A DNA stretch of 64,000 nt. It comes from Oscillibacter valericigenes (GTDB lineage: Bacteria; Bacillota; Clostridia; Oscillospirales; Oscillospiraceae). Below the pieces are notes generated by a model, which saw only the letters and a list, made by a program, of their open reading frames with translations, was not told where the DNA came from and did no database searches. The translations under genes were made by a program, and so were the position numbers. Each line of letters starts with the position of its first letter. Position 1 is the stretch's first letter. Positions 1 to 29,259 of this stretch are shown in pieces. The stretch is from positions 1-64,000 of the forward strand of contig NZ_JAFBIS010000012.1 of assembly GCF_021531435.1 (NCBI RefSeq), in the 5' to 3' direction.

Positions 1-60
1 TTGCATGTGTTAAGCACGCCGCCAGCGTTCGTCCTGAGCCAGGATCAAACTCTCTATAAA
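1..60 (-). rRNA. 16S ribosomal RNA, 5' end only
   Basis: The reverse complement carries the universal 16S 5' segment, including AGAGTTTGATCCTGGCTCAG followed by the GGACGAACGCTGGCGGCG block typical of Clostridia. The gene runs off the left edge, so only about 57-60 bases of the mature RNA are present. It is transcribed leftwards from the tandem promoters at 270-298 and 368-396. The exact mature 5' end cannot be fixed from sequence alone. Confidence 0.97.
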
Positions 61-21244: not shown

Positions 21245-21450
21245 ATCAACGCCCTGCGGGGTGCGTGATAGATCTTTTTTTAACCCACATTTCGTTATAC
21301 GGGATGCCGGATCAGCCTGTGGTTCGCAGGCCTCCCGGCCGCATTCCGCGGCTGGAAGTTGGAAGCGGTAAAGCAAGCTGGAGGCGACCCACCTGTCCGT
21401 AAAGGTGCAGGTTATAACGAGGTCTACACGGCCGCCGCGGGGCACGTTTT
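21245..21450 (+). ncRNA. structured RNA, 6S-like candidate
   Basis: A noncoding stretch that folds into one long interrupted rod. The closing stem pairs GCCCTGCGG (21251-21259) with CCGCGGGGC (21435-21443); it continues with GTG/CAC and TAGATC (21269-21274)/GGTCTA (21421-21426). A U-rich unpaired zone follows (21275-21292), then CGTTATA (21293-21299)/TATAACG (21413-21419). Above it are hairpins GCCTG/CAGGC (21315-21331) and an 8-bp CCGGCCGC/GCGGCTGG (21335-21355). G-U pairs occur only when read as plus strand, and GTTTTT follows. Rod, central bubble and about 200 nt length suit 6S RNA; identity is not proven. Confidence 0.5.
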
Positions 21451-27552: not shown

Positions 27553-27682
27553 TGAAATTGTAGGTGCGTTCAAAAAGGAACCGTCCTTGTGCCCGCAAAG
27601 ACACAAGGACGGATAGCAAATCAACTTTGCCGCCCTCGGCAGGATTTACGAGGTTGCCCTCACCTGCTGTCTTTGGAACGCA
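27553..27682 (-). ncRNA. L10 leader (rplJL autoregulatory RNA)
   Basis: The 5' UTR between the promoter and rplJ has the expected L10-leader elements: an AGCAGGTG segment pairing with CCTGCCGAGG, then a terminator-like hairpin. In Firmicutes, L10(L12)4 binds this leader and stops its own synthesis. Identity rests on position, length and these motifs. Confidence 0.8.
27572..27612 (-). terminator. attenuator hairpin in L10 leader
   Basis: CCGTCCTTGTG (27581-27591) pairs with CACAAGGACGG (27602-27612); on minus it is followed by TTCCTTTTTG. It lies just before rplJ and is therefore an attenuator, not an operon end. Confidence 0.75.
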
Positions 27683-27688
27683 TCTGGT

Positions 27689-27717
27689 ATTATATTAAAG
27701 GATTGACACAATGTCAA
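27689..27717 (-). promoter_or_regulatory. promoter for rplJL
   Basis: Perfect consensus on minus: TTGACA (27712-27717), 17 bp, TATAAT (27689-27694). It gives rplJL a transcript independent of rplKA. Confidence 0.85.
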
Positions 27718-27764
27718 TACTTTAATATCAATTTTCCCCCAATTCCCGCAAAGGAAGGGGGCTA

Positions 27765-27937
27765 GGGGGAACCGTTGGTTCCCCCAGTTCTTCCGCCGGA
27801 GGCGGAAGAAGCAAATCAAATCATTTTCGGCAGGACATGCGCCTGCCGAAAATTCCTTGACCCAGCCGCCGGGGGCGGCGTTCACCAGTCCGCAGACTGG
27901 TGGTGGGGGTTCTAAAGGGGGAGCCTGCTCCCCCTTT
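27765..27937. repeat. array of six consecutive hairpins between rplA and rplJ
   Basis: Six near-perfect stem-loops follow one another in 173 bp: 27765-27785 (9 bp), 27788-27810 (10 bp), 27823-27853 (12 bp), 27865-27879 (6 bp), 27883-27902 (8 bp), 27914-27937 (11 bp). No coding frame is convincing. The one next to the rplA stop may be its terminator although it lacks a T-run. The arms differ in sequence, so this is not a simple repeat family. Confidence 0.8.
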
Positions 27938-27944
27938 AAGCTCC

Positions 27945-28637
27945 TCAGATGAGCTTCGCAGTGTTCATCTTCACGCCGGGGCCCATGGTGGAAGCAGCCA
28001 CGCAGCTGCGGATATACTGGCCCTTGGCGGTGGCGGGCTTGGCCTTCACGATGGCGCCCATCAGAGCGTTGTAGTTCTCGGTCAGCTTCTCGGGGCCGAA
28101 GGAGACTTTACCGATGGGGCAGTGGATGATGTTGGTCTTGTCCAGACGGTACTCGATCTTACCGGCCTTGACTTCCTTCACGGCCTTGGCAACATCGGGG
28201 GTCACGGTACCGGCCTTGGGAGAGGGCATCAAACCCTTGGGGCCCAGGACCTTACCGAGGCGGCCGACGACGCCCATCATGTCGGGGCTGGCGACGACCA
28301 CGTCGAACTCGAACCAGTTTTCCTTCTGGATCTTCTCAACCAGATCCATATCGCCCACATAGTCGGCGCCGGCCTCACGGGCAGCGTCGGCCTTGTCGCC
28401 CTTGGCGAACACCAGCACGCGGACGGTCTTGCCGGTGCCGTGGGGCAGAACGATGGCGCCGCGGACCTGCTGGTCGGCGTGACGGGAGTCAACGCCCAGC
28501 TTTACATGCAGCTCGACGGTCTCGTCGAACTTGGCGCTGGCGGTCTTGCAGATGAGAGCCATGCCATCAGCAGCCTCGTACAGAGTGTTCTTGTCGATCT
28601 GCTTGGCACTTTCCTGATATTTCTTGCCTCTAAACAA
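27945..28637 (-). CDS. rplA: 50S ribosomal protein L1
   Basis: A 230-residue L1: [16 protein letters not shown]-terminus, [36 protein letters not shown] and the C-terminal [23 protein letters not shown] at 28635-28637 with AGGAGG 8 nt upstream is the only start that gives the conserved N-terminus; the upstream ATG would add 16 unrelated residues. Confidence 0.97.
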
Positions 28638-28730
28638 TGTTACTTCCTCCTCATAGTGGTTCTTCGGACTCTGAGTTCCTCCCACTGTATGGAGCGGCCT
28701 TGTCAGCCGCTCGGCTGATTGTTATGAATG

Positions 28731-29156: not shown

Positions 29157-29259
29157 GGAGTAGCACCTCCTAAATTATAAATGTGGTAGCGGACTTCCAG
29201 GAGTCCGTCCTTGGCGGGGCTTTTCAGCCCCTCCCACCTGCATCCAACGGATGCTTTTT

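Follow-up and report, generated by a model that had tools for sequence, protein, structure and literature searches.

We found that the six hairpins lying back to back between rplA and the rplJ promoter of Oscillibacter valericigenes belong together as a single copy of an intergenic repeat, about 200 bp long, that is composite and dispersed and in which hairpins H1 to H6 follow one another in a fixed order. Each hairpin is close to a perfect palindrome, and where its sequence varies the two arms vary in step; loss, replacement and nesting all affect whole hairpins. Copies in this genome lie a few nucleotides 3' of a stop codon and in sense orientation, 3' of unrelated housekeeping genes, with the next gene mostly co-directional. 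Overall, the array is probably best explained as a composite, stop-anchored repeat of the REP/BOX type with a REP-like effect on the gene upstream.

Six perfect hairpins between rplA and the rplJ promoter

The window, that is, the whole 64,000-nt stretch of DNA that we analyzed, carries on its minus strand, in order, nusG, rplK, rplA, the hairpin array, the rplJ promoter, the L10 leader, rplJ and rplL (Table 1). An earlier note on this DNA had described six hairpins in 173 bp, at a density far above chance and without a proper T-run, and all three observations held. Positions 27765-27938 contain six non-overlapping perfect stems of 6-12 bp (at least 6 bp was required) with loops of 3-8 nt; in 1000 dinucleotide shuffles the mean was 0.41 stems and the maximum 3, and none reached six. 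When 173-bp segments of the 64 kb (step 25) were ranked by paired bases, the top eight all fell at the array. The transcribed minus strand of 27730-27950 folds at -122.1 kcal/mol (z -7.42), as low as none of 200 shuffles. A lax scan of the minus strand called just one of the six stems, H4 with its tail GATTTGATTT, terminator-like; no T-run was found 3' of H1, H5 or H6, and the tails of H4 are merely moderately T-rich across copies. Intrinsic terminators were therefore rejected. Membership in an Rfam family was likewise rejected, as a scan of 27730-27945 gave no match at gathering score and chance-like matches only at a lax threshold.

The whole element lies between the rplA stop codon and the rplJ promoter. 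Its 3' limit, which we placed by eye in alignments that included both occupied and emptied sites, is approximate; at some emptied sites in relatives (L171 and L173, remnants judged by eye) H7 alone is left.

Table 1. Features of the rplA-rplJ region and of the nusG-rplK spacer (window coordinates).
Feature	Position	Strand	Stem (bp)	Observation
Whole element copy, from H1 through H7	27734..27939	-		blastn and covariance-model matches elsewhere in the genome
H1, TAAAGGGGGAGC/GCTCCCCCTTTA	27913..27938	-	11	6 nt 3' of the rplA TGA; perfect stem
H2, CACCAGTC/GACTGGTG	27883..27902	-	8	perfect stem; other copies: invariant or with a GAC extension
H3, GCCGCC/GGCGGC	27865..27879	-	6	perfect stem; different stem GTGCGCCC/GGGCGCAC in other copies
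H4, ATTTTCGGCAGG/CCTGCCGAAAAT, then GATTTGATTT	27823..27853	-	12	perfect stem
H5, TTCTTCCGCC/GGCGGAAGAA	27788..27810	-	10	perfect stem; pairing kept with other sequence in other copies
H6, GGGGGAACC/GGTTCCCCC	27765..27785	-	9	perfect stem; counterparts in other copies
H7, imperfect 3'-terminal hairpin, overlaps H6	27734..27771	-		inverted-repeat pair, 79% complementary
rplA (L1), upstream gene	27945..28637	-		start codon uncertain
rplJ promoter, TTGACA-17-TATAAT, outside the element	27689..27717	-		12/12 match; retained at element-free sites
L10 leader (RF00557), outside the element	27566..27694	-		53.2 bits, gathering 44
Separate conserved nusG-rplK leader, two covarying hairpins inside GTGG...CCAC	29181..29238	-		27/30 loci printed, by eye

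The array recurs throughout the genome with its pairing preserved

We searched the genome (2.80 Mb in 93 contigs) by blastn with 27690-27945 as query and obtained 23 places at E <1e-13, the query copy included; printed side by side, these show the same hairpins in the same order. A covariance model of H1-H4, built from 14 copies, matched 28 places at E <= 1.1e-7 (these are the copies counted below); the other 31 of its 59 matches were weaker and were left unused, many of them being opposite-strand echoes of the palindromes. The statement of the earlier note that the hairpins are limited to the ribosomal cluster was thus wrong, and a regulator specific to that cluster is rejected because the copies are genome-wide. 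Of the four roles that it proposed, the insertion of small palindromic elements is the one that fits, in so far as the array is a repeat, which is one composite unit with a fixed hairpin order rather than six separate insertions; graded termination and stabilization of the mRNA 3' end may also play a part. Of the 15 places with the H1 core, one lies outside the matched arrays.

On the 14 copies, 91.5% of pair cells were standard, compared with 86.1% after shuffling and at most 50.9% when partners were slid by 1-3 columns. Both-sided changes occupied 27 cells, against a shuffled mean of 10.6 (0 of 500 shuffles as high), and were carried by H1, with compensatory C-G/A-U changes at two pairs, and by H4, with both-sided changes at five. 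H2 is nearly invariant, and H3 exists as two different stem types, which the 14-copy alignment registers poorly (71.4% paired). Among the 23 of 28 copies that were compared with one another (cores under 135 nt were left out), none were near-identical (maximum 0.948), and copies were generally no closer to their partners at the same site in relatives than to other copies. The rplA copy, for instance, scores 0.95 against the copy 3' of the PNPase-like gene of its own genome, versus at most 0.91 against rplA-site copies in other species.

Copies follow stop codons in sense orientation

With a codon-usage gene caller, the upstream neighbor lies on the strand of the element in 28 of 28 copies in the genome and the downstream neighbor in 25 of 28. 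This caller was preferred to a longest-ORF caller, whose orientations were mixed because of long antisense frames in G+C-rich DNA; small genes at two loci, L042 and L052, were added beyond its calls. In 27 of 28 copies, no more than 10 nt separate the upstream stop codon from the start of the H1 stem; in the exception, L042, the distance is 15 nt by the model and 22 nt by the perfect core. The first position of the model falls at -4 to +15 of the stop in 21 of 28; in the remaining seven H1 is directly 3' of the stop as well, and the model start is displaced by extra hairpin modules between H1 and H2. In six copies the TAA stop is itself written by the TTAA/ATAA start of the element (distance -4).

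The same arrangement was seen in a larger, partly preselected set of 102 distinct elements from this and other genomes (104 matches minus two seen twice from neighboring loci): 89 are sense, 8 opposite and 5 without a call, and for 71 of the 89 sense elements the start falls between -4 and +10 relative to the stop. The element at L042 is labeled opposite under the two-strand rule because a convergent gene lies 53 nt beyond it, yet a sense gene precedes it (codon-usage calls with the correction). Reversed copies do occur in relatives, three of them at groES-groEL, with four more opposite calls among other loci, so sense orientation is not obligatory.

Genes upstream of copies include those for HU, the PNPase-like protein, groES, tpiA, metG, a secA-like and a proS-like gene and uracil phosphoribosyltransferase, which leaves ribosomal-protein binding, proposed in the earlier note, unsupported as a general role. 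A Pfam scan of 20 of the 28 upstream proteins returned, among others, HU, the PNPase-like protein, methionyl- and prolyl-tRNA synthetases, a TPP enzyme, a class-V aminotransferase, SecA, BipA, uracil phosphoribosyltransferase, a response regulator and a thiolase, with no common theme among these 20. The groES, tpiA, rplA and FabG-like genes were recognized from sequence, and four loci (L055-L058) were left out of the scan.

Distribution and the same sites in relatives

Within the genus, at least 63 of 83 genomes have a match at E <= 1e-5, at least 23 have ten or more, and the top count is at least 29; 20 of the 83 have none among the candidates scored. At least 26 of 36 same-genus genomes besides that of O. 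valericigenes have a match. At the level of the family, matches at E <= 1e-5 come from at least 41 of 200 genomes and at least 29 of 92 genera; copy counts are lower bounds, and these family-level matches are partly weak and may include chance hairpins, the strong ones (E <1e-18) being confined to the genus itself and four others. Across 23 other families of the order, weak matches were seen in one genome (best 2e-7, G042), and the best match anywhere among 80 named rplA loci was 1.8e-4.

Of 30 rplA-rplJ loci from the genus, the covariance model found the array in 14 (our own and 13 others) and not in the remaining 16 (E <= 1e-6); the spacer of one genus genome (G067) is also that of Oscillibacter sp. 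PC13. By eye, one site retains H1-H4 only (L183), one H1 only (L195) and one the 3' end only (L171); another (L198), also matched by the model, has H1-H3 and H6 without H4-H5, one is a degenerate spacer (L196) and one holds next to nothing (L192). The earlier note had suggested such an alignment as a check; it shows that whole hairpins come and go as units and that compensatory changes keep the pairing.

The array was also found 3' of tpiA in 14 of 30 loci (our own and 13 others, by the model) and 3' of groES in 9 of 30, namely our own, five sense and three reversed (L229, L242 and L246). When the states that we assigned by eye at the tpiA site (15 full, 5 remnant, 10 empty) were placed on a gene tree of tpiA from the 30 loci, they required 6 changes, compared with a mean of 12.5 when shuffled (0 of 200 as low). 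Occupancy of the tpiA site thus follows the species tree and is largely inherited. At three groES-groEL spacers of relatives (L250 in G017, L255 in G068 and L248 in G023), other, unrelated long palindromic repeats, of the AATTAGGAATTAG... and GAGTTGAGAGT... types, occupy the same stop-proximal site.

Nested modules and mobility

Further hairpin modules are nested in the array, within the loops of H3, H4 and H6 or in the linker between H1 and H2, and the host arms remain intact. Two of them, modules B and D, have 13 matches in the genome, some inside other, unrelated palindromic elements, and several copies have GTAG after module D. At three separate loci (L301, L302 and L303) other long palindromes have module D at their tips; at the first of these loci it lies just 5' of a sequence that by eye resembles the 5' end of tmRNA. 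A long terminator-like hairpin, with an A-rich and a T-rich arm, is inserted between H1 and H2 at two loci (L054 and L053).

The genome has 4 matches to Y1_Tnp, the Y1 transposases of the RAYT superfamily. When copy number was compared with the presence of Y1 matches (E<1e-20) across 83 genomes, the median was 5 with a match (19 genomes) versus 4 without (64 genomes; p 0.43), and 7 genomes with at least ten copies have no Y1 match at this threshold. A RAYT-driven REP was rejected, since copy number does not follow Y1 transposase matches across these genomes. Carriage by phages or plasmids was rejected too, because neither 50,697 phage records nor 72,556 plasmid records gave a match at E <= 1e-3. 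The 29 end pairs that were printed show, by eye, no consistent target-site duplication, which is hard to define because most 'empty' sites keep remnants; several begin at a nested module, not at H1. In some copies the 5' GAGGGGGAGCAGG resembles the 3' complement GGAGGGGGACTAGG, both being G-runs (by eye). With neither near-identical copies nor a target-site duplication seen, mobility is read from dispersal only.

Wobble pairs in the stems

Selection on a fold at the RNA level should make G-U exceed A-C on the transcribed strand. In 241 distinct stems of the 89 sense elements, G-U:A-C was 35:39 (32:23 by distinct contexts, 35:23 with loops of up to 12). The L10 leader, which served as a control and was counted by the same method, gave 14:0 (9:0 contexts; Fisher 1.7e-4 for raw counts). 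Terminator-like stems gave 10:9 and the nusG-rplK leader 0:1 (8 sequences); as neither of these two controls has an excess of G-U, the result holds only as a contrast to the L10 leader. The pairing thus gives no sign of wobble tolerance at the RNA level and the arrays do not look like a conserved riboregulator, although a role of the hairpins in mRNA is compatible with this result.

Other structures in the region

The earlier note had listed further hairpins between nusG and rplK and between rplK and rplA. Their inverted-repeat arms are real, and they are something other than the array, to which they are unrelated. The nusG-rplK leader, of the pattern GTGGGAGG-hairpin-CCGCCAA-hairpin-CACCACAT, shows both-sided changes genus-wide; it explains most of these additional hairpins and has no Rfam match over 29181-29238. 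At rplK-rplA, most of the 16 loci printed have a covarying hairpin (28692-28712 and following) with CATACAGTGGGAGG after it. These structures look like a ribosomal-protein leader; for the nusG-rplK leader, a natural guess is that it is possibly an L1-type autoregulatory site.

The hexamers of the rplJ promoter lie inside an inverted repeat (27689-27728, minus strand) with 17-nt arms that are 94% complementary. We compared 23 distinct sequences from the genus in which the spacer is 17 nt: three flanking pairs of this dyad vary on both sides and remain complementary in 22, 18 and 20 of them. Because the dyad lies upstream of the rplJ transcript, this suggests an operator or a process at the DNA level. 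Elsewhere in the window we noted a 6S RNA (RF00013, 64.4 bits) at 21248-21447 (plus strand) and a 16S rRNA match whose first 60 positions lie at 1-60 (minus strand), cut by the window end.

Discussion

The repeat described here resembles several known systems and coincides with none that we found named. The earlier note had considered that the same arms might recur genome-wide as a known mobile repeat; they do recur, and the literature searches that we made gave no published name for the repeat and no paper describing one like it in this bacterial group. Like REPs and BIMEs, it consists of intergenic palindromes, mostly 3' of genes and in some cases stop-proximal. According to excerpts of PMC12306157, E. 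coli REPs less than 16 nt from a stop codon reduce translation (Liang 2015, cited there), and 446 of 4,072 REPs lie within 15 nt of a stop codon by RepRanger; the hairpin of the repeat shares this spacing. A REP, however, is a single palindrome of 20-40 bp with a GTAG (or CGTC) tag (PMC3733652), whereas the present repeat is a fixed series of six different hairpins spanning about 200 bp, with 27 of 28 copies at the stop. By eye, no such tag was seen at the feet of H1-H6 in the copies printed. BOX elements are composite (boxA-boxB-boxC), modular, structured and dispersed, with a varying number of modules (PMC3049150), and in these respects the repeat is like them. It differs from BOX in having, by eye, no tandem boxB-type units, and its modules are different palindromes that nest into loops and linkers; the two sequences, compared by reading only, are unrelated as far as read. 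ERIC, RUP and Bcr1 are small interspersed repeats. With these and with MITEs the array repeat has in common that it is non-coding, dispersed, base-paired and without a gene of its own, and it differs from MITE-like repeats in its G+C-richness and perhaps in its ends, where by eye neither clear long terminal inverted repeats nor a target-site duplication was seen. Palindromes are also found among the structured RNA candidates of human microbiomes in Fremin-type catalogues, of which PMC8040213 counts 250 palindromic candidates among 3,161.

We propose that the array would be a non-autonomous REP/BOX-like repeat, once spread by a putative recombinase and now mostly inherited vertically and reshuffled through recombination between copies. 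Vertical inheritance together with exchange between copies would explain both the inheritance of the tpiA site and the closeness of the rplA and PNPase-like copies. If transcribed, H1 would sit where the terminating ribosome stands, and the hairpins 3' of it would form a structured spacer. By analogy with REPs, the most likely effect would be on ribosome release, with the output of the upstream gene modulated, and the array would shield the 3' end of the mRNA and insulate it from the next gene or promoter.

Alternatively, the copies could be selfish palindromic debris without function, anchored at stop codons through an insertion preference or the deletion of spacer bases and oriented by the mechanism of insertion. 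The unrelated upstream genes, the presence and absence of the array between species at each of three sites, the 20 of 83 genus genomes without a match among candidates scored, the nesting of other modules and the lack of a G-U excess all agree with such an origin, which we consider possible, if somewhat unlikely, given that compensatory changes keep the pairing, that all 28 copies in the genome are sense and that the array persists at tpiA at the level of clades. A related reading, which we regard as doubtful, is that the palindromes of stop-anchored arrays are kept perfect at the DNA level while new modules insert into older loops and linkers. It draws on the missing G-U excess, the intact host arms around nested modules and the covarying dyad of the rplJ promoter. 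Template-switch correction or hairpin-targeted recombination are candidates for this upkeep, in an equally speculative picture of a lineage-wide ecosystem of arrays. Were palindromes maintained in this manner, compensatory change would be no signal of RNA function.

A row of hairpins could also act as a transcription attenuator, causing partial termination or pausing between the genes of an operon, and some BIMEs in operons can attenuate transcription (PMC3049150, in excerpt). The sense orientation between co-directional genes and the terminator-like call for H4 would suit this role; we nevertheless judge it improbable, as H1, H5 and H6 have no T-run, the tails of H4 are only moderately T-rich, a full promoter lies 3' of the array at rplA, and reversed copies exist. 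Although the array adjoins the L10 leader, the chance that it is an RNA regulator confined to the ribosomal operon, such as a binding site for a ribosomal protein, is very slight, because it recurs 3' of unrelated genes and the model did not find it at 16 of the 30 same-genus rplA-rplJ loci.

Small palindromic repeats are well known, and their role at stop codons has been tested mainly in E. coli. The present repeat counsels caution: where palindromes are repeated, compensatory change is no proof of a functional RNA. It also offers a natural experiment: sister species carry the same site occupied, partly occupied, reversed or empty, and their comparison could show how hairpins affect translation and the ends of mRNAs.
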